Shown here: positions 7,214 through 62,532 of the stretch, one piece after another
How the letters are laid out: each line of letters starts with the position of its first letter
Numbering within the stretch: the first letter of the stretch is position 1
NCBI GenBank assembly: GCA_021772635.1
Contig: JAJFLP010000016.1
Coordinates: 1 to 64,000 of the forward strand
Origin: Verrucomicrobiota bacterium
Lineage (GTDB): Bacteria; Verrucomicrobiota; Lentisphaeria; JABSQK01; JAJFLO01
DNA: 64,000 nt
Direction: 5' to 3'
Position numbers and translations under genes: made by a program
The notes under the pieces: model-generated
What the model was told of the DNA's origin: nothing
The model's database searches: none
What the model saw: the letters and a program-made list of their open reading frames with translations, nothing else

Positions 7214-9247
7214 ATGTCCGATAACGACAAGATAGATAAACCGGAAGAATCCAGTTCAGATTCTGGAACCGATAAAGAGTCGAAAGGAAAGAAACCTGAC
7301 TTGAAGGTATCACCGCCTTCTGTTCAGACCTTCGCATTTTGGCTCATCATCTTATTTGCGGTTCCAGTCGGTTTATGGTTTTTCCATAAACAACAAGAAG
7401 AAGTGGATACACTCAAAAACTCTGAGTTCGAAGCTGCTCTTCTGGAGAAGAGAGTTCACAGTGTCGTAACCGTGCATGAACCGACCACCGGAAATCGAAA
7501 AATCACGGGCGAGTTTAAGCGGGTGAACGACACGTCCTTAAGAAAATATAGCGTGGAAGTTACCTACACGGATGCGTTAGACCAGATGATCCGGGAGAAT
7601 TGCGACGATAGACAGACGATTAATGTGTCCAATTTCTTTAACAACTTAATGCTTTCGATTTTACCTATCATATTGTTAGTCATCGTCATTTATTTCTTAT
7701 TCGCAAGGCAGATCAAAAGTGCGGGAAAAGGCGCACTTCAATTCGGTAAAAGTCGCGCAAAGTTGAATCAAAATTCAGAGAAAATCACGTTTGCCGACGT
7801 TGCGGGAATTGAGGAAGCGAAAGAGGAGATAGAAGAGATAATCGATTATCTAAGAGCTCCGGACCGGTTTCACAAGCTTGGCGGTAAAATGCCCAAGGGA
7901 GTACTTATGATCGGGCCGCCGGGGACCGGGAAGACGCTATTAGCTCGCGCGATCGCAGGAGAAGCCGACGTACCGTACTATTCGATTAGCGGTTCAGACT
8001 TCGTCGAGATGTTTGTCGGTGTCGGTGCGAGTCGAGTTCGAGATATGTTCGAACAAGGCAAAAAAAATGCACCGTGTATTATTTTTATAGATGAGATAGA
8101 TGCTGTCGGGAGATCTCGTTTTAGCGGAATCGGAGGGGGGCACGATGAACGTGAGCAGACGTTAAACGCACTTTTAGTGGAAATGGACGGATTCGAAGAT
8201 GCATCAGGCGTCATTGTCATTGCAGCGACAAACCGACCAGACGTACTGGATCCGGCATTGTTGCGTCCCGGGCGATTCGATCGTCAAATCGCAATTGACC
8301 TTCCTGATGTCAAGGGGCGCCTCGGTATATTAGACGTTCATTCGAAGAAAATTAAATTAAGTGATGACGCGAATCTGGAAATTATTGCGCGCGGAACGCC
8401 CGGATTCAGCGGTGCCGATTTAGCTAATCTCCTGAATGAAGCGGCGTTATTCGCTGCGCATAATGACAAGAACGCCGTCGATATGAGTGATCTTGAGGAA
8501 GCGCGCGACAAAGTACGCTGGGGTAAAGAGCGCCGAAGCCGAAAGATCAATGAACACGATCGAGAGGTAACCGCGTATCACGAGGCCGGACACACTCTCG
8601 TCGGATTACACTGTGAACACTCGACACCGTTACATAAAGTTACGATTATTCCGCGGGGTAACGCGTATCTGGGCGCGACGATGCATTTGCCGGAAGCGGA
8701 TAAGTATACTCAGTCCCGATCGGAATTGATCGACGAGATAACAGTTCTTATGGGAGGACGATTCGCGGAAAAGCTCATATTCAACGAGGTCACGAGCGGT
8801 GCGGCGATGGATATTAAACAGGCGACGAAGTTAGCGAGAAACATGGTGTGTGCCTGGGGAATGAGCGACAAAATCGGCTTGTTGAATTACACTGGAAGAG
8901 AGGAACATATCTATGTCGGACGGGATATCACACGATCAGAAGATTTCAGCGAAGTAACCGCTAGAGAAATAGACTTAGAAGCAAAGAGTATTATCGATAA
9001 TGCTGCTGGCCGCGCAGAGCGAATCCTTAATGAACACAAAGATCAGCTCGTTCTCCTTGGCCAGGCGCTGTTGAAGCATGAAACGATGGACGCTAATGAG
9101 GTGAAAGAATGTTTGGGGATGAAGACAAATAGTGCTGACATACCTGAAACAGAAGTCCCCAAAAACTCTGAGACGTCGGCTGACAAACCTGAAACAGACG
9201 ACCCCAAAGATAATGAAAAACCGCTGGAGGTATCTACGGATACTTAG
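7214..9247 (+). CDS. ftsH: ATP-dependent zinc metalloprotease FtsH
   Basis: The 677-residue protein has the full FtsH order. A charged N-terminal tail is followed by TM1 ([18 protein letters not shown]), a small periplasmic domain and TM2 ([17 protein letters not shown]). The AAA+ module has Walker A GPPGTGKT, Walker [13 protein letters not shown] and arginine-finger region RPGRFDR. The protease domain has the zinc site HEAGH. It degrades misfolded membrane and regulatory proteins at the inner membrane. The ATG at 7214 is chosen because AAGGA lies eight bases upstream; the frame stays open further upstream without a ribosome site. The TAG stop is the first codon of an adjoining R1 repeat. FtsH partners of the HflK/HflC type are encoded at 24.5-28.4 kb. 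Confidence 0.96.
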
Positions 9248-9430
9248 ACTGCAAGAATTCGAATTTTCTGTTTGGGATTATCCGTCCCGAATAATCCGTA
9301 TTGACTGGACCCACGCTGCTGCGGTGCGGATAACCGAGGCCTCCGTTATCCGGCGAAAGCGACCACGCCGAGATAATCGCGCACGAGATTCTGAACGGTA
9401 CATCGAAAACTCTACAGTAAGTTAGTATAG
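9245..9430 (+). repeat. R1-related repeat, degenerate, providing the ftsH stop codon
   Basis: It starts TAGACTGCAAG, whose TAG is the ftsH stop, and ends with ACGAGATTCTGAACGGTA, CGAAAACTC and TTAGTATA. The middle is unlike the R1 core. Confidence 0.5.
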
Positions 9431-9577
9431 TATACCGAACGTCTTCAAGTTTTTGAATATTGTTCGATATCCCTTAGGTTAATGAATTCAAAGTCGTCTC
9501 TCTCCGCACCGCATTCTCGGAGTCCGCTCGAGCGGACTCCGTCTATACGGACCCAAAATTGCACTGCTTGCAGTATA
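9431..9577 (-). repeat. R1 repeat copy, inverted
   Basis: Read on the minus strand it begins TATACTGCAAGCAGTGCAA, has a hairpin GGAGTCCGCTCGAGCGGACT in the first cassette position, the core CGACTTTGAATTCATTAACC, and ends AAGACGTTCGGTATA. Confidence 0.88.
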
Positions 9578-9682
9578 GATACTGGAAGGCTAAGCTCGGT
9601 TCAGCCTTTCGAGTCATACAAAAACTGCCCGTAGGAAAATGGCAGTAACCAGGCCACTAATAGAGTTCTAGCGATTACTACA

Positions 9683-10807
9683 ATGAAAAATACGACTGAT
9701 CACCTTATTCTCGTCGTTGACGACATACCTGACAATGTCACTATGCTCACAGCACATTTGCGCACGCGTGGATATCAGACGACCTCGGCGAACGATGGCA
9801 TTGAAGCTATAGAGGTTGTTGATAAAGAAAAACCCGATTTAATTCTGCTCGATATTAACATGCCACGAATGAATGGTCTCGAGGTGTGCGAGAAGTTGAA
9901 GGGAGATCCTGAAACCGAATCGATCCCTATAATTCTTGTCACCGCGAATTCGAATGTTGACGATATCGTCCGCGGTTTCGAAGTCGGGGCAGACGACTAT
10001 CTAATCAAGCCCTATAATTATTTAGAAATGCTTGCACGTGTAAGATCTATGCTTCGTATTTGCGACACGCAACGAGAACTCGTAAAGGTAAATCAGACTC
10101 TCGATGAACTAAATCAGACCTTGGAAAAGAAAGTATCGGAACAGGTTCACGAGCTCGAACGAGTAAATCGGCTTCGGCGATTTTTTTCGCCTCAAATTGT
10201 TAATACAATTACGTCCGAGAATTCCGAACAAATTCTTGGCGAACATCGCCGGGAGATAACGGTGGTATTCCTGGATTTACGGAATTTTACCAGTTTCTCG
10301 GAAAAAGCCGAACCCCATGAAGTAATCGCAACGATCCGGGACCTACATAAAGTGGTCGGTCCCATCATCTTTCGGTATCGCGGCACATTGGAAAGATTTA
10401 CCGGCGACGGACTCATGGTCTTTTTGGGAGATCCGGAGCCTATGGAAGACCATCCATCTCAGTCGGTGAAAATGTGCATTGAGATCCGCGACAAAGTGGA
10501 GATATTACGCTCGTCGTGGGCGGAGAAAGGGTATGACCTGGCGCTCGGAATCGGAGTGGCCACCGGCGAGGCTTCATTAGGAACAATCGGGTTTGAAGGG
10601 CGACTTGATTACGCGGCGATCGGTGTTGTCACGAATCTCAGTTGTCGAATTTGCAGCAAGGCCGGAGGCGGGCAGATTTTACTTTCGAATGCGACGTATG
10701 AAAAGGTAAAAGATGAGTTTACTACTGTACCGTTTGGAGAAATTGAACTGAAAGGGTTCTCGAAGTCGCACCCTCTTTTCGAGGTGATTTCAAGCAACGA
10801 GAAATAA
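9683..10807 (+). CDS. Response regulator with class III adenylate/guanylate cyclase output
   Basis: Residues 8-125 form a receiver domain: acidic pair in VVDD, phospho-acceptor Asp in LILLDINMP, and Lys in LIKPY. A coiled coil follows (ELVKVNQTLDELNQTLEKK). From about residue 190 comes a class III cyclase domain with the two metal-binding aspartates in VVFLDLRNFT and FTGDGLMVF. The base-specifying positions are atypical: Arg in LERF instead of Lys, and Val in AIGVVTN instead of Asp. The pattern IGxVTNLxxR belongs to a recognisable bacterial subfamily. A phosphorelay should switch cNMP synthesis (inference). No histidine kinase is adjacent. A cNMP-binding kinase is encoded at 60866. Confidence 0.9.
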   Translation: MKNTTDHLILVVDDIPDNVTMLTAHLRTRGYQTTSANDGIEAIEVVDKEKPDLILLDINMPRMNGLEVCEKLKGDPETESIPIILVTANSNVDDIVRGFEVGADDYLIKPYNYLEMLARVRSMLRICDTQRELVKVNQTLDELNQTLEKKVSEQVHELERVNRLRRFFSPQIVNTITSENSEQILGEHRREITVVFLDLRNFTSFSEKAEPHEVIATIRDLHKVVGPIIFRYRGTLERFTGDGLMVFLGDPEPMEDHPSQSVKMCIEIRDKVEILRSSWAEKGYDLALGIGVATGEASLGTIGFEGRLDYAAIGVVTNLSCRICSKAGGGQILLSNATYEKVKDEFTTVPFGEIELKGFSKSHPLFEVISSNEK

Positions 10808-10810
10808 TCA

Positions 10811-10908
10811 GTACGAAACTGAAAGCAGTTGAAACGTTAAGCATGGGTCACGGTAACTGCGTATAAGATTTCGAACGGTATTTCGAAAACTCGAAGGCGT
10901 TCGGTATA
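10811..10908 (+). repeat. R1 repeat copy, diverged left half
   Basis: The left end reads ACTGAAAGCAGTTGAAACG. The right end is typical: AAGATTTCGAACGGTATTTC, then ACTCGAAGGCGTTCGGTATA. It ends 18 bases before the next gene. Confidence 0.65.
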
Positions 10909-10925
10909 ACTTAAGGGCAAAACTG

Positions 10926-11447
10926 ATGAGTAATTTGACGAAAACGCTACCGATAATTTTGTCGATTTGGGTCACTGCTTTCGCTGTCACCCCGAAATCG
11001 ATTGCAGAACAGGGCTCTAAAGAAGTCGATCATCGCACAGCTGCCGAAAAGTCTTCTCCGAGTAAGCAAATTACCGACGAGAAGCGTTCGAAAGAGAAGT
11101 CCTCGTCAGAATTACAGAAGCAGATCCGCGAAATCAGTAAGAAGACAAGTGCACGACGACGGGCGCTTTATAAAGAAAATGAGGAAATTAACGAGTTACA
11201 GAAGAAAATTAGCGAATTTCATCAGAGGGTAAATGAAATTATTTCGACAGATGAGGAATACGCGAAATTACTGGAAGAACAGAGACTTTTGCGTGAAGAA
11301 ATGAAAAAGCACTACGACAGAAAACAAAAACTTCAACGATCAGTCAGTGGTAGAGCCTCAAAGAATTTGAATTCAACCCCTCCAGCCCCCGTGCCACCAG
11401 CCTTACCTGAGAGTAACAGCGACACGCCTTCCATTGAGACAAAGTGA
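10926..11447 (+). CDS. Exported coiled-coil protein of unknown function
   Basis: I do not recognise the family. The 173-residue product starts with a signal-peptide-like segment (LPIILSIWVTAFAVTPKSIA) with a possible cleavage site near residue 28. A highly charged Lys/Glu/Ser region follows, then a heptad-like coiled coil (EENEEINELQKKISEF and EEQRLLREEMKKHYDRK, about residues 80-140). The tail is rich in Pro and Ser. It is predicted to be periplasmic, possibly a structural or spacer protein. It starts 18 bases after an R1 repeat. Amino-acid use (Lys, Glu, Ser) is biased, but the frame is clean and strand-consistent. Confidence 0.65.
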   Translation: MSNLTKTLPIILSIWVTAFAVTPKSIAEQGSKEVDHRTAAEKSSPSKQITDEKRSKEKSSSELQKQIREISKKTSARRRALYKENEEINELQKKISEFHQRVNEIISTDEEYAKLLEEQRLLREEMKKHYDRKQKLQRSVSGRASKNLNSTPPAPVPPALPESNSDTPSIETK

Positions 11448-11543
11448 AATGCCGCGGATCGGCGTAACACTTCCCTTATCGGGCATGATCCATCCGAAAC
11501 GTCAATCGGCTCAGTATTCCTTCGATAGTTTCCTTCATTAGAC

Positions 11544-11620
11544 CACCGCAAGCAGTCCAAATTCTGGTCTGCATTTGCTGAGTCCGTTTGCTCGGACCAG
11601 GAATACTGCGTGTTATGATG
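11544..11620 (+). repeat. R1 repeat fragment
   Basis: It shows CCGCAAGCAGTCCAAATTC and a hairpin with arms GAGTCCG and CGGACC in the first cassette position, then degenerates. Confidence 0.5.
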
Positions 11621-11627
11621 GCGGTTT

Positions 11628-11750
11628 TAGTGCAAGCAGTACAATTTTGGGATGGCTTCGAATTTATCAGCCAAGAATTTCCGAACGATATCTCGTCCCG
11701 CATGCGGGACCATGATTTGCGGTATAAAACCCGAAGATGGTCAGAATATA
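11628..11750 (+). repeat. R1 repeat copy with CCCGCATGCGGG cassette
   Basis: It begins GTGCAAGCAGTACAATTTTG, contains GGATGGCTTCGAATTTATCA and TTCCGAACGATATCTC, then the hairpin CGTCCCGCATGCGGGACC. GGTATA follows at 11721-11726, and a further CGAAGATGGTCAGAATATA end reaches 11750. Confidence 0.78.
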
Positions 11751-11796
11751 ACGGTCGGCGTACGCAGACACGTGGGTGGAAAGAGTGTAGATCTAC

Positions 11797-11976
11797 TTAT
11801 GCCTCAATCGTCAAGATTTGACGATCCTTATAGAATCCGCACGATTTGCAGGCGCAGTGGGTGAGCTTCGGCGCACCACAGCGGGGACACGAATTGGTTT
11901 GCAACCCTTTATAGCTGTTTGCCGCCTTACGCTCTCGACATTTTTTCTTAGAAGCTTTACGTTGTTGAACTGCCAT
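11797..11976 (-). CDS. rpmF: 50S ribosomal protein L32
   Basis: The minus strand encodes 59 residues starting MAVQQRKASKKKCRERKAA, the basic N-terminal tail of L32. Two CxxC-type pairs of the zinc-binding L32 form follow: CPRCGAPKLTHC and CKSC. The length and the C-terminal GFYKDRQIL fit the family. L32 sits near the exit tunnel of the large subunit. It lies divergent from a plsC-like acyltransferase gene; rpmF is often linked to fatty-acid and phospholipid genes (plsX, fabH) in other bacteria. No strong Shine-Dalgarno precedes the ATG. Confidence 0.95.
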   Translation of the reverse strand: MAVQQRKASKKKCRERKAANSYKGLQTNSCPRCGAPKLTHCACKSCGFYKDRQILTIEA

Positions 11977-12213
11977 GATTAAACCAATGCTTAGCTGTTA
12001 GATTGTTGGTATATATAGGTTCTGACGTAATATCTCATTTTCGTCAGCATCCATGGTATCGCATCGGTCGGGCACCGAAACTACGTATTCACCCGAATTT
12101 CGCGTATTTGCTCACGCTACGCCCACCGTCTATAATCAACGGGCAGTTATTTTAACAGTGTTAAATTAATTTACAACATTCATTAGATAATTTTCTCTCC
12201 CAAGAGACCGAAA

Positions 12214-13008
12214 ATGACCTATAGCCAATTCGTTTCCACGCTGACTGAAAAGAATTCGTACTGCAGCGCTGTCCCCGGTAAGGGAAATCCCAGCAAAATT
12301 CCAGGAGTAATCGGACTATTGTTTTATTTCCGCGTCATGCAGGTAATCCTTCGTGCTTACAAACGCAGTAGAAAGGAGAATTACGGACCCTCTCAGTTAA
12401 AGGAGGATGCCTTCCACATTATCCCGGCGATCGAAGAAACAGGGGCGGCGCTAAGGCTAGGCGGTATCGAGCATATTCGTAACACAAGCGGGGCTGTAGT
12501 CTTCATCGGCAACCATATGAGTGGACTCGAGACGATCTTGTTCCCTGCAATAATCCTCCCGTACAAGGAAATGACATACATACTGAAGCGAAGCCTGGTT
12601 AGCTATCCCATATTCGGACCGGTCACATCAGCGCTAAATCCAATTACTGTTTCCCGAAGCGATCCGAGAGAGGACCTGCGGCGGGTTCTTGCGGATGGCA
12701 ACGCGCTTCTTAAAAAAGGGTGTTCGATTATAGTCTTCCCCCAGCGGACACGAACCGTGGACTTCGACCCCAAGCAATTTAATTCGCTCGGAATCAAGCT
12801 TGCGAAGAAATCCAATTGCCCGATTATTCCCTTCGCAGTCAAGACCAATCTTTGGGGGATAGGAAAAGTCGTTAAAGATATAGGCCCGATAGATCCGAAA
12901 AACGATGTGAACGTCGAATTCGGCGAACCATTTTCTGTAGAATCCCGGGGAAAAGACGAGCATCAACGCGTCATCGAATTTATCCAATCAAGATTGGCCA
13001 GTTGGTGA
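12214..13008 (+). CDS. PlsC-type 1-acyl-glycerol-3-phosphate acyltransferase-like protein
   Basis: The 264-residue product has the order of the PlsC/LPLAT family but with variant motifs. Block I is NHMSGLE (H-x4-E instead of H-x4-D). Block III is FPQRTRT instead of FPEGTRS, and CPIIPFAVKT stands at the position of block IV. The catalytic His is retained. It should transfer an acyl chain to a glycerophospholipid or other lipid acceptor at the inner membrane. The substitutions recur in some LPLAT subfamilies, so loss of activity is not implied; the acceptor may differ. It is transcribed divergently from rpmF. Confidence 0.8.
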   Translation: MTYSQFVSTLTEKNSYCSAVPGKGNPSKIPGVIGLLFYFRVMQVILRAYKRSRKENYGPSQLKEDAFHIIPAIEETGAALRLGGIEHIRNTSGAVVFIGNHMSGLETILFPAIILPYKEMTYILKRSLVSYPIFGPVTSALNPITVSRSDPREDLRRVLADGNALLKKGCSIIVFPQRTRTVDFDPKQFNSLGIKLAKKSNCPIIPFAVKTNLWGIGKVVKDIGPIDPKNDVNVEFGEPFSVESRGKDEHQRVIEFIQSRLASW

Positions 13009-13085
13009 CGCCTACGGGATATTTCAATGGCAGATTCTAAGCGATCGTAAAATCCATGATTGTTGGTTTACTCCTAACTCTCCGA

Positions 13086-14375
13086 CTAAGCTCCGTTCGC
13101 TATACACCGAGTGAGTAAAGGAACTAAGTCTGTGATCGTTCCAGCGCCCATGATGAGGAATAGATCCCCGGCCCGAGCGGAGCTCGCGAGTTCGTTCGCG
13201 AGGATCGGGAACGCCGCTTCTGAATAAGAGCTGATCGTCGTTCCCATCTGTTCGACGATAACCTTGGCATTCCCTGGAGAACCGTCATTCGCCCACGCTT
13301 CAAAATGTGGGACAACGACTACAACGTCGGCTCTCGAAAGTTCCTTCGCAAAATCGGCTGAGTAGTGCAACACCCGTTCGCGCCGATGGGGTTGAAACAC
13401 GACGACCATACGCTCCCAGCGATAGTGTTCTGATACCGCTTTAATTGTGGCGTTCACTTCTGCCGGATGGTGCGCGTAATCTTCAATGACCTTAATTCCT
13501 TGGTTGTCGTATCGGATCGACATTCGGCGATCGACACCGGAAAATCTCTGAATGCTCTTGATAGCCTCTTTCCTTCCGATCCCAAGCTTAACCGACATCG
13601 CAACGGCGAGGTGTGCGTTCGTACGATTGTGGTAGCCAGGGACGATCAGCGAGAGGTTCATTTCGTTTTCAAGCGGGCTAAGAAAGTCGATATTTTTATG
13701 AATTGAGAAGAGGCGTCTTGTTGTAGAACTATCGCATGCCAGAAGATAGTCGGAGTGATTTCCAAATTCACGAAAACTCCGCATCAGGCCATCCACTCCG
13801 CCAGTACTCCAAAAATGATCATCATCAACATTCGTGACTATCGCATGTGTGTTCCTCATTGCAGTTTGTGACCCATCACTTTCGTCTACTTCTGCAATGA
13901 GCATGTCTTCAGTACCGGCAGCGGCCGGTGTTTTGTATTCATTCATGCTACCGCCAACCAGATATCCGGGAGCCCTTCGATTTTCGAGGAATATGTGGGT
14001 TAACATTGCGGCAACCGTTGTTTTACCGTGGGAACCCGCGATTGATATCCTACGCGTGTAATTGCTGGCGATTTCGGATAGGAAGTCTCCACGCCGGATG
14101 ATCGGGATTCCGCGCTCGGATGCTGCGCATAGCTCCGAATTATCACTCGCGATCGCGGAGGAATAAACGACAATATCAGGATTTTCGACGTGGTCTTTCG
14201 AATGCCCGATATGAACACGAATACCTCGTTTCTCCAGCATCACGGTATTGGTTGAGTGAAGGAGGTCAGAACCGGAAACGCGGGCCCCTAGGTCCTTGGC
14301 AATCAGGGCAAGTCCTGCCACTCCGGCACCACCGATCCCGATGAAATGCAAATTATGCCAAGGTAGTTTAATCAC
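13086..14375 (-). CDS. murC: UDP-N-acetylmuramate--L-alanine ligase
   Basis: The enzyme adds L-alanine to UDP-MurNAc in peptidoglycan synthesis. The N-terminal Rossmann domain starts HNLHFIGIGGAGVAGLALIA, the standard MurC fingerprint. The ATP site is IAGSHGKTTVAAML, and the C-terminal ligase domain contains DYAHHPAEV. I place the start at GTG (14375), giving 429 residues: it puts the GIGGAG motif about 12 residues in, as in other MurC proteins. The frame is open to 14525, but those extra codons fall partly in an R1 repeat and resemble no MurC. murF is encoded at 56028, so the mur genes are scattered, unlike the dcw cluster. Confidence 0.93.
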   Translation of the reverse strand: MIKLPWHNLHFIGIGGAGVAGLALIAKDLGARVSGSDLLHSTNTVMLEKRGIRVHIGHSKDHVENPDIVVYSSAIASDNSELCAASERGIPIIRRGDFLSEIASNYTRRISIAGSHGKTTVAAMLTHIFLENRRAPGYLVGGSMNEYKTPAAAGTEDMLIAEVDESDGSQTAMRNTHAIVTNVDDDHFWSTGGVDGLMRSFREFGNHSDYLLACDSSTTRRLFSIHKNIDFLSPLENEMNLSLIVPGYHNRTNAHLAVAMSVKLGIGRKEAIKSIQRFSGVDRRMSIRYDNQGIKVIEDYAHHPAEVNATIKAVSEHYRWERMVVVFQPHRRERVLHYSADFAKELSRADVVVVVPHFEAWANDGSPGNAKVIVEQMGTTISSYSEAAFPILANELASSARAGDLFLIMGAGTITDLVPLLTRCIANGA

Positions 14376-14476
14376 GGATAATCCCTGAATTATGACGAAT
14401 GGAAAAGGCTCTAAGAATTTGGTGTTTACTCTTGAATTCTGTGAAACTCGTGGTATTAAATGTGCCGGATAGGAAA

Positions 14477-14562
14477 TAGACTGCAAGCAGTCCAATTTTT
14501 GGACGACCCAAAATTGATCACTCAAGAGATTCCGAACGAAAACTCGAAGATGATCAGTATAT
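14477..14562 (+). repeat. R1 repeat copy, short form without large hairpin
   Basis: It begins ATAGACTGCAAGCAGTCCAA, contains TGATCACTCAAGAGATTCCG and ACGAAAACTCGAAG, and ends ATGATCAGTATA. It lies 22 bases before rpsT and upstream of murC. Confidence 0.85.
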
Positions 14563-14584
14563 CATATACTGGAGAGCGCAACTT

Positions 14585-15490: not shown

Positions 15491-15670
15491 TAACCGGAAT
15501 AATTCACCAGTATTTTCATGCGAGTCCTAATCTCTACTCAAATAAACCGATTGGCTTGACTTCACATCTTAGTGAATGAAAATTCACTTTCACCATGGCG
15601 CCTTCTCCAATCGTCTAATTATGAACGAGTTAAGTTCTTTCGCGACGAATCGCGTGAACTAATCAGGCTA
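15491..15670 (+). repeat. R3 repeat copy, 180 bp
   Basis: It runs from TAACCGGAATAATTCACCAG to GTGAACTAATCAGGCTA. Its interior contains TAGTGAATGAAAATTCACTT, a palindrome around GTGAAT/ATTCAC. It is the same length as the copies at 37260 and 62353 and is more diverged than those two are from each other. Confidence 0.88.
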
Positions 15671-16906: not shown

Positions 16907-16943
16907 ACCGCGGTTGCGGAAAGTTTCCAACCAACCCGGAGCC

Positions 16944-17154
16944 TAGCCTACATTATGCATAAACTTTCTACTGCGAGCATGTATCAGACCTAATATAAAC
17001 GAGTTACAAAGAACGTACGATCCCGCGGTCACGGGACTAGACTAAGAGATTCAGCCGATATTTCAATGTCCCTTCAGCCGTACAACCTTTGTAATTCATT
17101 GATCTCAGGCCAGCTAAATGCTCTCGTAATGAAATTGATGCATAGATCAGGCTA
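16944..17154 (+). repeat. R2 repeat copy, 211 bp
   Basis: It runs from TAGCCTACATTATGCATAAA to TGATGCATAGATCAGGCTA. The interior has CCCGCGGTCACGGGACTAGA. Its last TA plus the preceding C, read on the minus strand as TAG, is the stop codon of the gene at 17152-17913. Confidence 0.9.
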
Positions 17155-17913
17155 GTTCTCGTCAGCGGGTTTCTTGCGGACGGTTAGTTTGTCCGAGTCG
17201 ATCGTGATTTCCGTTATCTTAAATTGGATTTCATTTTTGAAATTAACGTTTTGTTCAATCACACCGGTAAATATCTTAATGAGCGGTTCTTGAAGCTGGG
17301 GTGTCGGAATCGGTAGTTTCCCGGCGTGTACCTGGTTTATTCTGAATGTTAAACCATTCGGGGTCCCAGTCACGGTTCCGGACACCGATGGATAAAAATT
17401 CAATTTACCCATCACCCGGCACTCTAACACAAACCTCATGTCGGTCGGCGGTAAGCATTCGATAAAGATGCCTTCGACGACAAGTTTCTGAGACACGCCC
17501 TCTGCAATTCTCTTCTCGTGCGCTGCCATCCGAGCATCGTCGGTTAGTTCGAGTACAAGCTCCGCTAACATATTAACTTCGCTGACATTAAACAGGTACT
17601 CGGTTCCCGGCTTTCCCTTCCGCAGTTTTCTGAATCGTTTTAACGCGACTTTCGTCTCTTCTTCATTTAATCCCGGAGGAGTCGATAGCGCGGGCTTTAA
17701 GAACGCCATAACGCCGCCGACTATACCTCCACCGATTAAAATCAGCAAGATCAAGTTACGCCCGACGGTCGCAATGGTCTTTCCGGCGGACGCCTTAGTT
17801 TTCGACTTCAGATCGTCGGGACGCAAATCATCAAGTTCCAGTTTTTCGCCACAACCGCGACAAAAGATCGCGCCTACTTGGTTGTCTTCACCACATTTGG
17901 GACAATTTATCAT
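17152..17913 (-). CDS. Zinc-ribbon membrane protein of unknown function
   Basis: I do not recognise the family beyond the ribbon. Residues 1-24 are a double CxxC zinc ribbon (CPKCG and CRGCG). A basic linker leads to one transmembrane helix (NLILLILIGGGIVGGVMAFL, about residues 52-71). The remaining 180 residues should be outside the membrane and are mixed alpha/beta with no catalytic motif. The TAG stop overlaps the end of an R2 repeat. The ATG directly abuts the stop of the upstream FmdB-like gene, so the two zinc-ribbon genes form a tight operon. Confidence 0.75.
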   Translation of the reverse strand: MINCPKCGEDNQVGAIFCRGCGEKLELDDLRPDDLKSKTKASAGKTIATVGRNLILLILIGGGIVGGVMAFLKPALSTPPGLNEEETKVALKRFRKLRKGKPGTEYLFNVSEVNMLAELVLELTDDARMAAHEKRIAEGVSQKLVVEGIFIECLPPTDMRFVLECRVMGKLNFYPSVSGTVTGTPNGLTFRINQVHAGKLPIPTPQLQEPLIKIFTGVIEQNVNFKNEIQFKITEITIDSDKLTVRKKPADEN

Positions 17914-18275: not shown

Positions 18276-18487
18276 TACCCTGATCCATGCATAAAATTTC
18301 TACTGCTAGCATGTATCAGACCTAATCTAAAATGGGTTACAAAGAACGTAAGATCCCGCGGTCACGGGACTAGACTAAGAGATCCAGCCGATATTTCAAT
18401 ATTTCTTCAGCCGTACAACCTTCGTAACTCGTTGATCTCAGGTCAGCTAAGTGCTCTCGTAACGAAATTGATGTATAGATCAGGCTA
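18276..18487 (+). repeat. R2 repeat copy, 212 bp
   Basis: It runs from TACCCTGATCCATGCATAAA to TGATGTATAGATCAGGCTA. This copy does not touch a stop codon, and its left end has drifted to TAC. Confidence 0.9.
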
Positions 18488-30410: not shown

Positions 30411-30481
30411 TGCTTGGATTAGTCGTCATTTTCCCATAGAACCCGATTTCTTCCCGGTGATCTGGAAAAACTGATTACTGG

Positions 30482-30693
30482 TAGCCTGACCTATGCATAA
30501 AGATTTCTACTGTGAGCATGTCTCAGACCTAATCTAAATGAGTTACAAAGAACGTATGATCCCGCGGTCACGGTACTAGATTAAGAGATCCAGCCGACAT
30601 TTCAATATTTCTTAAGCCGTGCAAACTTCGTAACTCGTTTATCTCAGGCCGGCTAAAAGCTCTCGTAACGAAATTGACGGATAGATCAGGCTA
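30482..30693 (+). repeat. R2 repeat copy, 212 bp
   Basis: It runs from TAGCCTGACCTATGCATAAA to GACGGATAGATCAGGCTA. Its right end on the minus strand supplies TAG, the stop codon of the merC-like gene (30691-30693). Confidence 0.9.
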
Positions 30694-31221
30694 GTTGCCG
30701 CCGCGGTGTTCCTTGCAGCGGGAACACGATTTGCACAGACGTCTATTTAGTAAGTGGCTCGCTGCAATTGAACCCGCGCCGAATACCAGTAATATCAGAC
30801 TCAATTTATTGTCTTGCGGGCGAGATATATGTTCTTTTCCGCCGACGGGTGCCGCTCCCGTTCCTCCATGGACCGCGGTAATTTTATGGCCCGATTCGCC
30901 GTGAACAGTATGACTGTGCGGGAAAATAAAGATTGCGGAGATCAGCATGATTGCCGCAGCCAAGAATACTAACAAAGCTTGGCTGTGCCGGTGTAATTTG
31001 TAGCTCCAGCATAAATTGCTTGCCGCTAGCAAAATCGTAGCGATTACGAAAACCCTCTCTGCTGTTTGATTCAATAGGAAATCCATTCCAACTAACGGAA
31101 GAACTACGATGAGCAACGGCATCGCCAGGCAATGCACGGCGCACGCAAAAGATAGGCATACCCCGAGAATATCCAGTCGGGAATAGTGTTTTCGCAGAAA
31201 TGTATTGGTTACCGTAAGCAT
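30691..31221 (-). CDS. MerC-domain membrane protein
   Basis: The 176-residue product has four membrane helices (LGVCLSFACAVHCLAMPLLI, VFVIATILLAA, LLVFLAAAIMLISAI, LILLVFGAGSIAAS). It carries the MerC signature CAVHC in helix 1 and Cys-rich CKSCSRC near the C terminus. MerC proteins are small metal (classically mercury) uptake or binding proteins; many copies without a mer operon have other metal roles. The neighbouring Fur-family gene and shared palindrome suggest metal-dependent regulation (inference). The TAG stop is part of an R2 repeat. Confidence 0.85.
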   Translation of the reverse strand: MLTVTNTFLRKHYSRLDILGVCLSFACAVHCLAMPLLIVVLPLVGMDFLLNQTAERVFVIATILLAASNLCWSYKLHRHSQALLVFLAAAIMLISAIFIFPHSHTVHGESGHKITAVHGGTGAAPVGGKEHISRPQDNKLSLILLVFGAGSIAASHLLNRRLCKSCSRCKEHRGGN

Positions 31222-37046: not shown

Positions 37047-37259
37047 GGTTATCGTTTTTTGGGGTTGCTGGCTATCGTGCCGTCATCCGAAATTGTCGTG
37101 TTACAATTGTGCGTTCAAGTAGCCGATTTAGCAAAGAATACCGGAAAACTCGTGTATTCGGTTACCGGTCGAACTATCAAGATCATTCGAGCGATAGGTT
37201 CCAAGCCGTCCGGAATTAGGGCTGCCCGCAACCTCCATTGATTTCATAGCCCCAAACTC
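37047..37259. other. Gap upstream of nadB, no gene recognised
   Basis: A 70-codon plus-strand frame overlaps the nadB start and has no family resemblance. No promoter could be chosen confidently. Confidence 0.4.
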
Positions 37260-37439
37260 TAGCCTGAGTAATTCATCAGTATTCTGCTACAAGCCCTAAT
37301 CTCTGCTCGAATAAGCCGATTAGCTCAACTTTACATCTCACTGAATGAATATTCACTTTCGCCGTCAAGTTTTCTCTAATCGATTTATTATGAGAGAGTT
37401 AAGCGCTCTCGCGACGAATCGGATGAATTAATCAGGTTA
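37260..37439 (+). repeat. R3 repeat copy, 180 bp
   Basis: It runs from TAGCCTGAGTAATTCATCAG to GGATGAATTAATCAGGTTA. Its right end, read on the minus strand as TAA, is the stop codon of the NusG-like gene (37437-37439). Confidence 0.92.
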
Positions 37440-37970
37440 GACGTCAATCTCGAGTGTATCAACATCAAGATCTACGCTAACGGAGTAGCCGATCATTTCA
37501 ACATTTACAGTCACCCGTGCCATTTGACTGCGGCGGGCGACCATACCCGTCAACCCGGCGAGGACACCCCGCTTGATTTGGACTCGGTTCCCGGTCTGTA
37601 CTTCCGGACGGACCTGCACCTTGCCTTCGTCCACAGCGCCAATTAAAATCTCAAGAGCACTGAGCTCCTGAACCAGTGTCTCCTCCATCGTTGTATCCGG
37701 CACGATAACCTGCGCCGAGTGCCGGGACTCCTGTAAGATAACTCTCTCTTCCAGGCGCGTGTGCGTGAAGACGTATCCCTGAAATACGGGGACCTTGAAT
37801 TCAACCACGCGTTTCGCATACCGCTTTATGCTTCGTCGCAGGGGGAGATAGGTGCTGATGTGTCGTTTCTCACAATATTCAGCAAACTTCTTTTCACATC
37901 GCGGTTTAGTTTTCGTAACCATCCAGCGGAAGCCATCCAATATCTCGAATTTCACGTGATCATCCTGCAC
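37437..37970 (-). CDS. NusG-like transcription antitermination factor (RfaH/UpxY type)
   Basis: The 177-residue product has a NusG N-terminal domain (FRWMVTKTKPRCEKKFAEYC, PVFQGYVFTHT) and a C-terminal KOW domain (GNRVQIKRGVLAGLTGMVARR). The N-terminal sequence WxxxxTKPRxE is the pattern of specialised NusG paralogues that act on long surface-polysaccharide operons, not the housekeeping NusG, which usually neighbours secE and rplK. No polysaccharide operon is adjacent. A methyltransferase and a CgeB-like glycosyltransferase lie 3 kb away. Its TAA stop is the end of an R3 repeat. Confidence 0.87.
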   Translation of the reverse strand: MQDDHVKFEILDGFRWMVTKTKPRCEKKFAEYCEKRHISTYLPLRRSIKRYAKRVVEFKVPVFQGYVFTHTRLEERVILQESRHSAQVIVPDTTMEETLVQELSALEILIGAVDEGKVQVRPEVQTGNRVQIKRGVLAGLTGMVARRSQMARVTVNVEMIGYSVSVDLDVDTLEIDV

Positions 37971-38964: not shown

Positions 38965-39175
38965 TGGCCTGATCTATGCATCAATTTCGTTACGAGAGCT
39001 TTTAGCAGGTCTGAGATCAATGAGTTACGAAGGTTGTACGGCCAAAGAAATATTGAAATGTCGGCTGGATCTCATAGTCTAGTCCCGTGACCGCGGGATC
39101 GTGCGTTCTTTGTAACTCATTTAGATTAGGTCTGATACATGCTCGTAGTAGAAACTTTATGCATAGATCAGGCTA
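38965..39175 (-). repeat. R2 repeat copy, inverted, 211 bp
   Basis: On the minus strand it runs from TAGCCTGATCTATGCATAAA to GATGCATAGATCAGGCCA. It is in opposite orientation to the other three copies and touches no stop codon. Confidence 0.9.
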
Positions 39176-54870: not shown

Positions 54871-54905
54871 CCATTTCGCTGTCCAATCCAAAGGATCCCC
54901 GTATT

Positions 54906-55676: not shown

Positions 55677-55800
55677 TTCGCTCGTGTTATCGCCTGAAAC
55701 ATTTCGTAATGGACTAATGTTTCTAAAGGTTTCGAGGTTCTGTTAAAGGTCTCTTTAGTCGTGCGTATACTGTTTTGACCCCGCAGGTAACGCGGGGATA
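55677..55800. other. Gap upstream of the CPBP gene, nothing recognised
   Basis: A small CCCCGC/GCGGGG hairpin (about 55781-55798) abuts the R1 copy. No other motif was seen. Confidence 0.4.
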
Positions 55801-55929
55801 TTATACTGCAAGCAGTACAATTTTTGGATGGCTTCGAATTTATCAGCCAAGATTTTCCGAATGATATATTTTTAACCGGCATAGCCACCTAGGCGACGCC
55901 TGGTCGAAAACTCGAAGGCGTTCAGTATA
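55801..55929 (+). repeat. R1 repeat copy with ACC-type cassette
   Basis: It begins TTATACTGCAAGCAGTACAA, contains GGATGGCTTCGAATTTATCA and CCGAATGATATATTTT, a CCGGCATAGCCACCTAGGCG cassette, and ends AAGGCGTTCAGTATA. Confidence 0.88.
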
Positions 55930-56027
55930 TATACGAAGCCGATTCGCTGTACTGCCAGACCCAAGTAGACGTTGGCGCGAACCTCCAATCGTTATGAGTC
56001 AAACTCACCGCATAACCGACTAAGATA

Positions 56028-57476
56028 GTGACCCAATCCGCAAAATCGACAAACACCCCGCTTTTTACGTGGAAAGAATTAATCCAGGTGACGAACGGGG
56101 AATGGCTCATTGCGCCCCCGCAGGGGCCGGACTATCCGGGAATTGATCGAATCTCAACCGACTCGCGGGCAATCTCCGAGAATGCGCTATTTCTGGCATT
56201 GGAAGGAGAACGATTCAACGGTCATGACTTCATCGACGATTCGATCAATTCCGGTGCCGCCGCGGTATGCGCCTCAGAGATTTCACGGCACCGGCAGAAT
56301 CTACTCAGCGCGCGTGGTATTCCAACCCTGATTGTAGCGGATACGCTTCGAGCCTACCAGCAGCTTGCCCGTTACCACCGAATGCGATTCGACAAATTAA
56401 TTGTTGTTGCCGTTACGGGTAGTTCCGGGAAGACGAGTACCAAGGAGATCGTCGCTGCGATTTTGAGGGCACACGCTTCCGCCCATATTTTAGCGACCGA
56501 AGGGAATACCAATAATCAAATTGGCGTACCATCGAATCTGCTCAAGTTAACTCATCGTCACACCGCTGCGGTCCTCGAGTTGGGGACAAATTCACCCGGG
56601 GAGATTGGTATCCTCGTCGATTTGGTTCACCCGAATATTTCTATACTTACTAATATCGGTCGTGTACACTTGGAAGGACTGATGGACCTTGACGGGGTGC
56701 TGCGGGAGAAAACGGCGATATTCTCTACCTTATCCGCCACCGCGAATGGAGTCGCTATCTACCCGTATTCGCTGCGTGATTCTCTGGAACTGAGGGAATT
56801 AGTTGCAGAAATTAAGTCGGTAACCTTCGGTACCGAAAGCGGGGCGGATTATCGTGTCAGTTATGAAGGTGGAGGTCTGGACGGTTCACAATTTCGTTAT
56901 ACCGGTCCGCGAGATTTGCAGCCCATCGAGGTGAAATGGCGCATTCCCGGGGTACATATGGCGTTAAATGCTACCGTCGGCCTAGCCGTCGCGGATCTTT
57001 TGGATATCGACCGTTCCGCGGCTACTTCAGCGTTGCGCTCTTGCCGACTGCCTCCTATGCGTATGGAAGTATTTAGAAACCAGGGAATTTGTTGGGTTAA
57101 CGACGCCTATAACGCGAATCCGGAGAGCGTGATGGCTTTCATCGATTGGTTGCGATGTTTGAACTGGACAGATCAGGAATCCGGCTCGAAATACATAATC
57201 CTCGGTGATATGTTGGAACTCGGTAAGAATGAGTGCCAACTTCACCATGATATTCTCGTCAAGACCAAGTCCAAACTCCCGGGTATGGTCGTTATTGCAG
57301 TCGGCGAAAGGATGGTTGCCGCGGCTGCAGGGCTGGAAGTCCAAGCTTTCGAAAAAATAGAGAATCTGCGGAAGTGGCTGTTTCAATCGGATCGATTACA
57401 GCCTGGCGACACTGTCGCCTTGAAAGGTTCCCGTGGGGTGGCTATGGAACAGCTCCTCCCGACCGAGAGAGATTAG
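56028..57476 (+). CDS. murF: UDP-N-acetylmuramoyl-tripeptide--D-alanyl-D-alanine ligase
   Basis: The 482-residue enzyme adds D-Ala-D-Ala to the peptidoglycan precursor. The Mur ATP site is VTGSSGKTSTKEIVAAIL, followed by TEGNTNNQIGVPSNLL, LELGTNSPGEIGIL and the C-terminal NDAYNANPESV. The start is GTG with no clear ribosome site, and it puts the substrate-recognition segment (TDSRAI) near residue 45, as usual. It is not in a mur cluster; murC lies at 13 kb on the other strand. Confidence 0.93.
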   Translation: MTQSAKSTNTPLFTWKELIQVTNGEWLIAPPQGPDYPGIDRISTDSRAISENALFLALEGERFNGHDFIDDSINSGAAAVCASEISRHRQNLLSARGIPTLIVADTLRAYQQLARYHRMRFDKLIVVAVTGSSGKTSTKEIVAAILRAHASAHILATEGNTNNQIGVPSNLLKLTHRHTAAVLELGTNSPGEIGILVDLVHPNISILTNIGRVHLEGLMDLDGVLREKTAIFSTLSATANGVAIYPYSLRDSLELRELVAEIKSVTFGTESGADYRVSYEGGGLDGSQFRYTGPRDLQPIEVKWRIPGVHMALNATVGLAVADLLDIDRSAATSALRSCRLPPMRMEVFRNQGICWVNDAYNANPESVMAFIDWLRCLNWTDQESGSKYIILGDMLELGKNECQLHHDILVKTKSKLPGMVVIAVGERMVAAAAGLEVQAFEKIENLRKWLFQSDRLQPGDTVALKGSRGVAMEQLLPTERD

Positions 57477-57499
57477 GGAGTTCGGCAAACCCCGCTTTT

Positions 57500-57573
57500 C
57501 AGCAACCAGGTGTTCTGCTGTCCAGCGGAACTATGCCGGTTTAAAAAGATTGCTCGGAACCTCTTGGTGATTA
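57500..57573 (-). repeat. R1 repeat fragment, inverted
   Basis: It contains the hairpin CTGCTGTCCAGCGG and CCGGTTTAAAAA with TGCTCGGAACCTCTTGG, which is the R1 middle and right side. The ends are lost. Confidence 0.5.
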
Positions 57574-57705
57574 GTTATAGCGAACGTCTTCATCCCATGC
57601 GGGCCGAATTATTGTTTCCGCCGCGGCGGATTTCGCTAGGCTCAACATAGATCATCTTAGGTAATGAATTCGAAGTCGTCCCAAAATTGTACTGCTTGCA
57701 GTATA
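57574..57705 (-). repeat. R1 repeat copy, inverted, just upstream of trpC
   Basis: Read on the minus strand it begins TATACTGCAAGCAGTACAAT, then GGGACGACTTCGAATTCAT and TACCTAAGATGATCTATG, with a CCGCCGCGGCGG cassette, and ends AAGACGTTCGCTATA. It lies 18 bases before the trpC start. Confidence 0.82.
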
Positions 57706-57723
57706 ATACGTTCGAGAAGGATA

Positions 57724-58524
57724 ATGGAGTCGATACTTAGCAAAATAGTAGATCGCAAGAAAATCGAAGTCCGCGAAAAAAAGAGAGTAGCATCAGCGAT
57801 TTCGCTCGAACGCAGTACAAAGTTTAGTGATGAAACCCGAGGATTCGCGGCGTCTCTTCGCGAGAACTCTCGACGTAAACCCGCGATAATCGCGGAGATC
57901 AAACGCGGATCACCATCGTTGGGCTGTATTCGTCCAGAAATGGACGTAAAATTTCAAGCAGCGGCGTATGATCGAGGCGGTGCGAGCGCCTTATCCGTTC
58001 TGACGGATTCAGATTTTTTTTACGCAGATGAACATGATTTCCCGGAGGTGCACAATTCCACCACACTTCCGATCCTGCGCAAGGAGTTTATAATCGATGA
58101 ATACCAAGTCGTCGAAAGCAAAGCGATGGGAGCCGATTGCATACTGTTGATAATGACTATTCTCAAGGATCATTGCGCTCAGACACTGAGCCAATTGGCG
58201 CATGAACTTAGTATGGACGTTCTGGTGGAAGTTCATTCATCTACAGAACTGCAGCGCGTCCTTGATAACATCGACTTTGACCTAATCGGTGTTAATAATC
58301 GGAATCTCAGCACGTTCGAAACATCTCTGAATACTGTGTTGGAGCTGGCAAATCTTGTTGGCGATCAAACCTACCTTGTCGCCGAATCTGGTTTAAGCAG
58401 CGCCGTGGATATTAGCAACCTATATGAGCGCGGGATAAACAAGTTTTTAGTCGGAGAAGCGTTTATAAGAAGTAGCAATCCTGAAGAAACGGTTCGTTCG
58501 TTCGTGGAACGTAACCAGGCCTAA
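57724..58524 (+). CDS. trpC: Indole-3-glycerol-phosphate synthase
   Basis: The 266-residue TIM-barrel enzyme closes CdRP to indole-3-glycerol phosphate. Signatures include ILSKIVDRKKIEV, KPAIIAEIKRGSPSLG, LRKEFIIDEYQV, VEVHSSTEL, GVNNRNLSTF and AESGLSS. The start at ATG 57724 has GAGAAGG upstream; the frame is open 20 codons earlier but reads an R1 repeat there. No trpF domain or gene follows. It opens a cluster with trpB and trpA. Confidence 0.95.
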   Translation: MESILSKIVDRKKIEVREKKRVASAISLERSTKFSDETRGFAASLRENSRRKPAIIAEIKRGSPSLGCIRPEMDVKFQAAAYDRGGASALSVLTDSDFFYADEHDFPEVHNSTTLPILRKEFIIDEYQVVESKAMGADCILLIMTILKDHCAQTLSQLAHELSMDVLVEVHSSTELQRVLDNIDFDLIGVNNRNLSTFETSLNTVLELANLVGDQTYLVAESGLSSAVDISNLYERGINKFLVGEAFIRSSNPEETVRSFVERNQA

Positions 58525-58574
58525 AATAAACGAACATTCCGATTCGTAATCTTTCTGGTTTGTTGAGGTGAAAT

Positions 58575-58679
58575 TTGGAAAGGGATTACGATTATAATTA
58601 CGAAGAAAATCCAACGAAAAGTTCGCTGGAATTCGAACTGGCAGTTAGACAGCACAACGCGTCTGGTCTGTACCCTTAA
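58575..58679 (+). CDS. Possible 34-residue small ORF between trpC and trpB
   Basis: It starts at TTG with GAGG six bases upstream and ends TAA. The product is MERDYDYNYEENPTKSSLEF and fourteen further residues, rich in Tyr, Asn and acidic residues. It resembles no known leader peptide, and it has no tryptophan codon, so it is not a trp attenuator peptide. Confidence 0.3.
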   Translation: MERDYDYNYEENPTKSSLEFELAVRQHNASGLYP

Positions 58680-58711
58680 TACGATCAGCGTAACACTAAT
58701 ATCGATGAATT

Positions 58712-59932
58712 ATGAACTATCCTGAAATAGATATAGCAACGTTTGACGGAAGATTTGGTGAGTTCGGCGGTCAATATGTCGCGGAGACTTTGATGCCCGC
58801 ATTAAGTGAACTAACGACCGCCTTTAACACTGCGATTCGAGATCCACGTTTTCTCGATGAATTGAACATGTATTTGAAAGACTACGTGGGGCGTCCCTCC
58901 CCGCTATACTTCGCCGATCGTTTGACTCGTCATCTAGGCGGTGCGAAGATCTATTTCAAGCGCGAAGATCTCAATCATACCGGTGCTCACAAGGTAAATA
59001 ATACGCTCGGCCAGGTTTTGCTCGCTCGGCGAATGAATAAGCGACGTATTATCGCAGAAACCGGTGCGGGGCAGCATGGCGTCGCAACCGCGACCGCTGC
59101 CGCGTTGTTCGGACTGGAATGCGAGATTTTTATGGGCGAGGAAGATATTCGCCGCCAGCAGGAGAACGTCAAGCGTATGAAACTTCTCGGTGCGCAGGTT
59201 ACCTCCGTAACCAGCGGCACGAGAACCCTAAAGGACGCAATGAACGAGGCGATGCGAAACTGGATCGGGACGGTCGATCATACCTTTTACGTTATCGGCT
59301 CGGTTGCCGGACCGCACCCGTATCCACTGATGGTTCGAGAATTCCAGAGCGTTATCGGGAAGGAAACACGAGAACAGATTCAAGCTAAAGAAGGGCGATT
59401 GCCGGACGTCGTTGTCGCATGTGTCGGGGGGGGAAGTAACGCGATTGGTATTTTCGCGGCTTTTCTGAATGATCCTGGCGTGAAACTAATTGGAATCGAG
59501 GCAGCTGGATGTGGGATGGCTACGGATAAACACGCTGCAAGTATAACGGGCGGAGAGATCGGGATCCTTCACGGAAGCAAGAGTTATGTTCTGCAAACAG
59601 ACGACGGGCAAATTCGCAGCGCCCATTCAATTAGTGCAGGTCTGGATTACCCGGGTATCGGCCCAGAGCACGCTTGGTTGCATCGGTCGGGGAGAGTTGA
59701 GTACAAGGCTGTTACCGACGACCATGCTGTCGAAGCGTTCTTGGAGTTAACCCGCTTGGAAGGATTGCTGCCCGCCTTGGAATGCAGTCACGCCGTCGCG
59801 TACGTGATGAAAGCGGCCCCCACTCTTTCAACCTCCGATATTGTGATACTTAATCTTAGCGGTCGAGGCGACAAAGATATGGCAACAGTGAATCAGTATT
59901 TGAAAGATAAGGCTGAGGTAGCGAAAAGATGA
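58712..59932 (+). CDS. trpB: Tryptophan synthase beta chain
   Basis: The 406-residue PLP enzyme condenses indole with serine. The lysine that binds PLP is in [14 protein letters not shown], and the phosphate-binding loop is [14 protein letters not shown]. The N terminus [19 protein letters not shown] and the C-terminal [11 protein letters not shown] fit TrpB1. The stop overlaps the trpA start by four bases (ATGA), implying translational coupling. Confidence 0.96.
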
Positions 59933-60717
59933 ATCGAATTGAACAAATATTTGCGAAGGACAACAAGGTGTTTATCGCGTTTGTCACTGCGGGTTATCCG
60001 TCTGTCTCGGAAACATTAGACGTGCTCGATATCGTCGTTGATAACGGCGCGGATATTGTGGAACTCGGGTTCCCGTTCTCTGATCCGACTGCGGACGGCA
60101 AAGTAATTCAAGCGACGTCTCAGTTCGCACTGGATCGTGGATTTAAGCGCGACGATTACTTTATGATCATGAAGAAATTTCGCCAAACTCACCCGGATAC
60201 TCCAATCGTCGTATTTAGCTACTTCAACCCGATCTATCAGTACGGTACTGATAACTTCATCAAACGAGTTCACGAAGTTGGTGGAGATGCAGCATTAATC
60301 GTTGATCTCCCGCTTGAGGAACAAAATGACGTACTCACCGTCCTTAATAAATACGACCTTCCTTTGATTCAGCTCGTTGCACCTACCACGCCGGCTAATC
60401 GATTGCAGAGAATCCTCGAATGCGCGTCCGGATTCATCTATCAAATTTCGCTGCGCGGCGTTACCGGTATGCGCGACGAAGTCAAAACAAGTACGGCCGA
60501 CCAGACGGAGCTGATTCGAAAGTATACTGATCTTCCAGTCGCACTCGGATTCGGAATTTCGTCAGTGGAGCAGATACGGTCCGTAAAATCTCCAGTTGAC
60601 GGGCTCGTGATCGGCAGTGCTTTAATGGATTTATTGATCGCAAATGGCTCCGAATATAAAGACGCATTGGGTCGAACAACCCGCGCTTTCGCTAAGGCGA
60701 TACACGAACGCGACTAG
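59929..60717 (+). CDS. trpA: Tryptophan synthase alpha chain
   Basis: The 262-residue TIM-barrel subunit cleaves indole-3-glycerol phosphate and passes indole to TrpB. Catalytic Glu and Asp lie in [16 protein letters not shown]. Others are [24 protein letters not shown] and [12 protein letters not shown]. It overlaps trpB by four bases. Downstream is a kinase gene that is probably separate (148-base gap). Confidence 0.95.
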
Positions 60718-60865
60718 TGTGCCGACGCGGGTAAGACGCAGTTATTGCATCGTTGGCATTGCTGAAAGCCCAAAGAGGTTCAATAAAACATCGCTTATTT
60801 ATGCAACCAGACACCTGCCTTTGAACTTTAATCAAGCAAAATCGCCGATAATCTGAAGAATCCTG

Positions 60866-62338
60866 ATGGGAAAACACGACAAGATCGAGGAGCCTAATAC
60901 AATCTCCGAAGACAACCTAATCTCTTCCATAGTTATGTACCCGAAGAAGATGGTTAGAAAGCGATCCATCATCAGTTTGATAAAGAACGTCAGCAGGAAG
61001 CGATACGGAAGTGGGGCTGATAGATCCGATCTTACGGCAAAGGAACTGAGGCTGTTTAGTTCCATCCTAGCTCGAAAGGAGAACGAGGAAAAATACGAAA
61101 TCAAGAAAAAGGTCTCTGCAGGCGGGATGGGGAATATTTTCTACGTCTTCGACAAGGATTTCCGGAGGCATACAATCTTGAAAATGATCCTGCCGGAACA
61201 TAAGCAGAACTCAGTTCTGATTAGAAGCTTTATTCGAGAAGCGCGGATAACGGGGCAATTGGAACATCCGAACATCGTGCCAGTGCACGACCTCGGTTAC
61301 CTCCCGAATTTCGGGATCTATTTCACAATGAAGTATGTCGAAGGGGAGTCCCTCCTCGATATCATCCGGCAACTCGAACGGGGAAACCGAGATTATCACG
61401 ACCGCTACGATTTTTACACATTGCTGAATATATTTCGTAAAATTTGCGACGCCGTATCGTTCTCCCATTCGAAGAAGATCATCCATAGAGATATTAAACC
61501 TGCAAATATCATGGTCGGAAATTACGGAGAGGCGTTGTTGATGGACTGGGGGCTGGCGAAGAACGCATCGAAACAAGTTTCTGAAATCACTCCGAGAAAT
61601 CTCGACGTCGCGTCGCCGGGGAGTCATAGAGGAGATGCGACACGCTTCGGGATAATAAAAGGAACTCCTGCCTATATGGCGCCAGAGCAGGCGATTGGCG
61701 ATACAAAGAACATTGATTACTATAGCGATATCTTTCTTCTTGGTGCAACACTTTACCATCTCTTCACGTACCAGCCTCCGTATAGCGGTACCGAAGTATT
61801 AGGGATTATCAAGAAAGCCCAAGGACACGACATGGTACCGCCGGAAGAGTTGTGCTTCAAGAATCAACAGCTGTCAAAGGAACTATGCCGGATCATTAGC
61901 AAATCAATGGCGGCGGAGAAAGGGGATCGCTATCAGTCTGTGCAAGAAATGTCAAGCGATCTTGATGATCTTATCCACGGCAAGATGGAGTTTAATACAC
62001 GCACATTCGAGCCTGGTGAATATCTTGTGCGTGAAGGGGAACTTGGCGTAAACTCGTTTATAATTCTAAAGGGACGTGTGGATGTACACAAGGATATACG
62101 TGGGAAAATATTTTCGCTGGGACAGCTGAACGAAGGAGATTCCGTCGGCGAGATGGCGCTCATTACCGACGCCCCGAGAACGGCAAGTGCAGTCGCCCTG
62201 GAAGCGACAGAAGCACTTGAACTGGACAAGCGCCTTTTTACTCATAACCTGGAAAAGCTACCGTCTTGGATGGAAAAGACGATTGTAGCACTGGCTGACC
62301 GTTTGAGTGACGCGAATACGCGTTTAGCAGACAAGTAA
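60866..62338 (+). CDS. Ser/Thr protein kinase with C-terminal cyclic-nucleotide-binding domain
   Basis: The 490-residue protein has a kinase domain (about residues 72-370): SAGGMGNIFYVFDKD, catalytic Lys in TILKMI, IHRDIKPANIMV, LMDWGLAK and GTPAYMAPEQ. A cNMP-binding domain (about 380-480) follows, with FEPGEYLVREGELGVNSF and a phosphate-binding cassette GDSVGEMALITDAPRTASA; the Arg of PRTA contacts the cyclic phosphate. There is no membrane helix. It should be switched by cAMP or cGMP, fusing both signals in one chain. The window also encodes a nucleotide cyclase (9683). The first 70 residues are basic and unassigned. Confidence 0.9.
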   Translation: MGKHDKIEEPNTISEDNLISSIVMYPKKMVRKRSIISLIKNVSRKRYGSGADRSDLTAKELRLFSSILARKENEEKYEIKKKVSAGGMGNIFYVFDKDFRRHTILKMILPEHKQNSVLIRSFIREARITGQLEHPNIVPVHDLGYLPNFGIYFTMKYVEGESLLDIIRQLERGNRDYHDRYDFYTLLNIFRKICDAVSFSHSKKIIHRDIKPANIMVGNYGEALLMDWGLAKNASKQVSEITPRNLDVASPGSHRGDATRFGIIKGTPAYMAPEQAIGDTKNIDYYSDIFLLGATLYHLFTYQPPYSGTEVLGIIKKAQGHDMVPPEELCFKNQQLSKELCRIISKSMAAEKGDRYQSVQEMSSDLDDLIHGKMEFNTRTFEPGEYLVREGELGVNSFIILKGRVDVHKDIRGKIFSLGQLNEGDSVGEMALITDAPRTASAVALEATEALELDKRLFTHNLEKLPSWMEKTIVALADRLSDANTRLADK

Positions 62339-62352
62339 AACCAGTGGGGTCT

Positions 62353-62532
62353 TAGCCTGATTAATTCATGCGATTCGTCGCGAGAGCGCTTAACTCGCTC
62401 ATAATAAATCGATTAGAGAAAACTTGACGGCGAAAGTGAATATTCATTCACTGAGATGCAAAGTTGAGCTAATCGGCTTATTTGAGCAGAGATTAGGGCT
62501 TGTAGCAGAATACTGATGAATTATTCAGGTTA
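62353..62532 (-). repeat. R3 repeat copy, inverted, 180 bp
   Basis: On the minus strand it runs from TAACCTGAATAATTCATCAG to CATGAATTAATCAGGCTA. Its first TAA is the stop codon of the partial gene at 62530. Confidence 0.92.

Follow-up and report, generated by a model that had tools for sequence, protein, structure and literature searches.

Stop codons adjoining R2 and R3 repeats in a Verrucomicrobiota genome lie within duplicated YTAR target sites

The window, the 64,000 bp at bases 1–64000 of contig C38 from a Verrucomicrobiota draft genome of 3.97 Mb in 130 contigs, designated here as G000, contains five genes whose stop codons adjoin an end of a dispersed repeat. These genes encode FtsH, a zinc-ribbon protein, a MerC-domain protein, a NusG/UpxY-type antiterminator, and a protein that matched no family. 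The last of these comes from the right-end open reading frame, which is only part of a gene; the gene continues beyond the window as far as contig position 64797. The nearest named relatives of the FtsH protein are from metagenome-assembled Lentisphaerales, Kiritimatiellae, and Verrucomicrobiota, and the host is thus probably an uncultured bacterium of this group. No part of the window matched Rfam. The repeats are designated as R1, R2, and R3. An earlier note on this DNA had listed the five stops as the outermost bases of such repeats; its coordinates are all correct, and each stop touches a repeat end (Table 1). The R1 copy at ftsH was assigned from about 25 bp of its left end (about 92% identity) and a match to the right-end profile at 9366–9427.

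Table 1. Stop codons and repeat copies in the window. Positions are those of the window; flanks are given from left to right unless stated otherwise.
Feature	Coordinates	Strand	Ends or flanks
ftsH stop, TAG	9245..9247	+	TA is the flank; G is the next base inward, in an R1 copy from the TAG-ended minority
R1 copy, degenerate	9245..9430	+	Left end TAGACTGCAAG..., right end ...CGAAAACTC...TATA
R3 copy away from stops	15494..15667	+	CTAA at both flanks
R2 copy	16947..17151	+	CTAG (16943-16946), CTAG (17152-17155)
Zinc-ribbon gene stop, TAG	17152..17154	-	Within the CTAG target duplication
R2 copy away from stops	18279..18484	+	CTAC, CTAG
R2 copy	30485..30690	+	GTAG (30481-30484), CTAG (30691-30694)
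merC-like gene stop, TAG	30691..30693	-	Within the target duplication
R3 copy	37263..37436	+	CTAG (37259-37262), TTAG (37437-37440)
nusG/UpxY-like gene stop, TAA	37437..37439	-	Within the target duplication
R2 copy away from stops	38968..39172	-	CTAG, CCAG (in element orientation)
R3 copy	62356..62529	-	TTAG at both flanks (CTAA on the other strand)
Right-end gene stop, TAA	62530..62532	-	Within the target duplication

Copies of the three repeats were located by profile searches, and genome-wide counts were made in 1.53 of the 3.97 Mb of G000, sampled as stretches. Genes in these stretches (1,064) were predicted by a simple method based on hexamers, less refined than a standard gene finder. 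The sampled 1.53 Mb contain 363 copies of R1, of about 93 bp, and 141 copies of R2 and R3 together, of 169–247 bp; all three are short, non-coding, and dispersed, as are miniature inverted-repeat transposable elements (MITEs). Sequences with at least three further matches in intergenic regions fill about 38% of the intergenic DNA in this sample (111 of 295 kb), which makes G000 a good system for studies of MITE spread. Additional CTAG-ended repeat families are present in G000, often inserted side by side. Several contigs start or stop within R3 (C59, C63, C88, C8, C87, C126, C37, and C98), and R3 thus breaks the assembly. R3 was unmatched in a plasmid collection and in viral contigs.

R2 is mostly about 175 or about 205 bp long, while R3 is 174 bp. 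Both fold back over their full length and have terminal inverted repeats, the inner ends reading CCTGA...TCAGG, and both are flanked by a 4-bp YTAR, mostly CTAG, then CTAA or TTAG. The flanks are identical in 48 of the 78 two-ended copies of R2 and R3. Among the R3 copies of G000, the flank pairs include CTAG/CTAG (16 copies), CTAA/CTAA (7), and TTAG/TTAG (1), and the fourth base is the same at both flanks in 86% of copies, where 55% would be expected; registers of 2, 3, 5, or 6 bp showed no agreement beyond chance in R3. The R2 flanks are mostly CTAG/CTAG, which is consistent with a 4-bp duplication but is no test of one. In a genome of the same family but of a different genus (G002), almost every R3 copy is flanked by a matching duplication of CTAA, CTAG, or TTAG; the flanks of one copy are ATAG/ATAG. 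The bases before and after the TA agree between the two flanks of R2 and R3, and therefore both are part of the duplicated target. Thus, the stops at R2 and R3 belong to the duplicated host target and not to the repeat. The earlier note had proposed a bare TA as the target, the third base of the stop being supplied by the repeat; for R2 and R3 this has to be replaced by a duplicated YTAR in which the base after TA is the host's.

The best R3 matches in G002 are 91–93% identical to R3 of G000, while the FtsH proteins of the two genomes are 71% identical and the right-end proteins 53%. This identity between genera and the near-perfect duplications in G002 suggest either recent activity or horizontal spread. 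R3 also shows an orientation bias at the asymmetric target, with CTAA in its own orientation in 15 of 17 cases in G002 and 7 of 8 in G000.

It had also been claimed that R2 ends away from stops have drifted where nothing constrains them. Ends reading TAC and TGG do exist, in the copies at 18279–18484 and 38968–39172, but CTAG is kept at the other end of each. The R2 copy adjoining the merC-like stop is also altered at its far end (GTAG, or CTAC on the other strand). In the sampled 1.53 Mb, TAR is lost in 21 of 122 ends of copies that are not at a stop.

In the same sample, 17 of the 78 two-ended copies of R2 and R3 adjoin an in-frame stop; with partial copies counted as well, the number of such ends is 23. 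The size of the excess depends on the null. Random non-coding TA sites give 3.8 expected against 17 observed (P = 1.7e-7), while random non-coding YTAR sites give 11.8 (P = 0.07, non-significant). The latter null was derived from unique non-coding sites, where stops make up 17.3% of CTAG and 9.5% of CTAA/TTAG. The predicted excess at stops is therefore large against TA alone, and weak and non-significant against YTAR. Since most of the apparent excess vanishes under the YTAR null, the target explains most of the pattern. The stop context points the same way: a repeat directly follows 31 of the 83 genes ending in CTAG (37%), against 5–17% in other stop contexts (odds ratio 5.0 for CTAG stops versus other TAR stops, P = 4e-9). 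None of the 141 R2/R3 copies lies within a called open reading frame, while coding DNA holds the majority of CTAG sites (907 in the sampled 1.53 Mb). In G002, 2 of about 25 copies adjoin a long open frame.

Based on these data, it is very probable that R2 and R3 are MITE-like elements inserting at YTAR, and that their position at stops needs no special stop-supplying function. They would be non-autonomous inverted-repeat elements that insert into YTAR and duplicate its four bases. A C or T followed by a TAG or TAA stop makes up a full YTAR site, and insertion there would leave the gene with the same stop and an unchanged protein. Insertions within genes would be purged by purifying selection, as the absence of copies from open reading frames suggests. 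The surviving copies would then occupy intergenic YTAR sites and stops roughly in proportion to the numbers of sites. The mild surplus that persists at stops under the YTAR null, largest in convergent gene pairs, counts against this proposal, as do the results below on transposases and empty sites. In convergent pairs, 8 of 10 copies are at stops against 12 of 31 empty sites (P = 0.03, with small numbers), while codirectional regions are without a surplus (23% versus 20%).

Two readings would give this surplus a meaning of its own. YTAR may be a built-in safe-landing rule: as it includes TAR, a stop would be among the few positions of a gene where an insertion does no harm. Several unrelated repeat families of the lineage would then have converged on stop-keeping ends, and stops would be filled more than other non-coding YTAR sites; this reading is unlikely. 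Slightly less likely still is that placement after the stop is selected, the element serving as a transcribed 3' tail whose long hairpin protects or terminates the mRNA. The end-to-end folding of R2 and R3 (z = -6.5 and -5.0, respectively) and the concentration of the surplus in convergent pairs would fit, but any MITE is expected to fold over its full length, the overall surplus is non-significant, and copies per available site are no sparser in divergent regions (0.35) than in codirectional ones (0.22). Compensatory changes are few in R3 (2 of 40 pairs), and the covariation is too weak to serve as support for selection on RNA structure.

The earlier note had put R1, R2, and R3 under one rule, but R1 forms a family of its own, flanked by TA. 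Both of its ends carry TA, with varied outer neighbours, and the TA could also be the element's own. Nor do R1 ends generally read TA followed by G or A, as had been described: the base inward of TA is T in 153 of 246 left ends and 203 of 228 right ends, giving TAT. The statement that a stop would remain whichever base follows is false for this family, as TAT is a sense codon, and the usual R1 insertion into a stop would therefore open the reading frame. A position at a stop, such as that at ftsH, would be open only to the minority whose left ends read TAG or TAA; of the non-coding left ends with G or A, 21 of 98 adjoin a stop. Two copies with TAT ends are read in frame as the protein tails YTASSTIFG and YTASSTILG, in the genes C36:35852 and C116:42814. 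The homologue of one of these genes in G002 ends with KMK where the tail starts, and it is possible that R1 insertion caused the loss of the stop in both genes; the KMK end fits this without proving it. Across the genome, the first base of R1 left ends seems to covary with its partner on the other side of ACTGCAAGCAGT (TACTGCAAGCAGTA, GACTGCAAGCAGTC, AACTGCAAGCAGTT, and also TACCGCAAGCGGTA), as though the hairpin or a dimer site were being preserved.

For R1, bare-TA insertion in the style of IS630/mariner elements would fit, and TA is present in all ends. As an account of the stops in general it is improbable, less likely than the hairpin reading, because the bases on both sides of TA agree between the flanks of R2 and R3; moreover, no match to an IS630-type DDE_3 transposase was found in the draft genome itself.

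The note had further supposed that the stops existed before the repeats, and had called for comparison with relatives for signs of truncation. Homologues of all five proteins in genomes of the same family end at nearly the same place, and none of the five is truncated. The NusG-like homologues end one residue past the aligned block, the same as the query, and for the MerC-like, zinc-ribbon, and right-end proteins the ends differ by about 0–6 residues, while the length of the FtsH tail varies from one relative to another. Truncation of these genes was accordingly rejected, and by this comparison of protein ends the five stops are native. None of the relatives compared showed the identical site without its insertion, since the nearest of them are from another genus. 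That the repeats truncated genes and truly provided new stops is highly improbable: the R2 and R3 termini contain TGA in another frame, and a few copies elsewhere have a gene end just within the element, but nearly all stop-adjoining copies use the duplicated TAR in frame and not the other stops of the repeat.

The insertion of R2 and R3 at YTAR resembles that of IS5 from E. coli, which duplicates Py-T-A-Pu, with CTAG at 15, CTAA at 3, and TTAG at 3 of 24 listed sites (PMC5493358). The 4-bp duplication and its order of preference, CTAG being the commonest, followed by CTAA and TTAG, are common to both, as expected of IS5-mobilised MITEs. Unlike IS5, R2 and R3 carry no transposase, and R3 prefers one orientation at CTAA. 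Their terminal sequence CCTGA... matched no insertion sequence. None of 20 DDE_Tnp_1 loci in G000 and related draft genomes has matching terminal repeats, and no convincing long autonomous relative with matching flanking ends was found, the search for long elements covering about 40% of G000. By analogy, the transposase behind R2 and R3 is inferred to be IS5-like. They behave like IS5-mobilised MITEs and are candidate members of that class, no element sharing their ends having been found.

The findings show that the target preference of a transposase alone can place mobile repeats exactly at gene ends with the proteins unharmed. For annotation, they warn that such repeat-encoded stops are normally native. 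Insertion sites also have to be judged against a null built on their true target, as the TA-only null is misleading here.

Comparable repeats are known from other bacteria. Small inverted-repeat bacterial MITEs with TA ends include Correia, RUP, ERIC, and others (PMC2229807); R1 resembles them in form, and unlike them it bears a short hairpin at the left end. In Coxiella burnetii, the MITEs QMITE1 and QMITE2 overlap the last few bases of several genes, and one gene is lengthened in frame by such an element (PMC5896051). QMITE2 differs from R2 and R3 in its duplications of 7–9 bp, and a link with a stop-containing target is not reported in the sections of that paper drawn on here. The BOX repeats of pneumococcus are intergenic and encode the stops of 36 genes, whose orthologues give no strong indication of truncation (PMC3049150). 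R2 and R3 are like BOX in that repeat-encoded stops occur without truncation, while BOX is modular and has another sequence and host, and a target-site explanation is not given in the portions of the BOX report considered. The phenomenon is thus already known, and the R2 and R3 copies adjoining stops illustrate it well, with a mechanism that clearly explains it.
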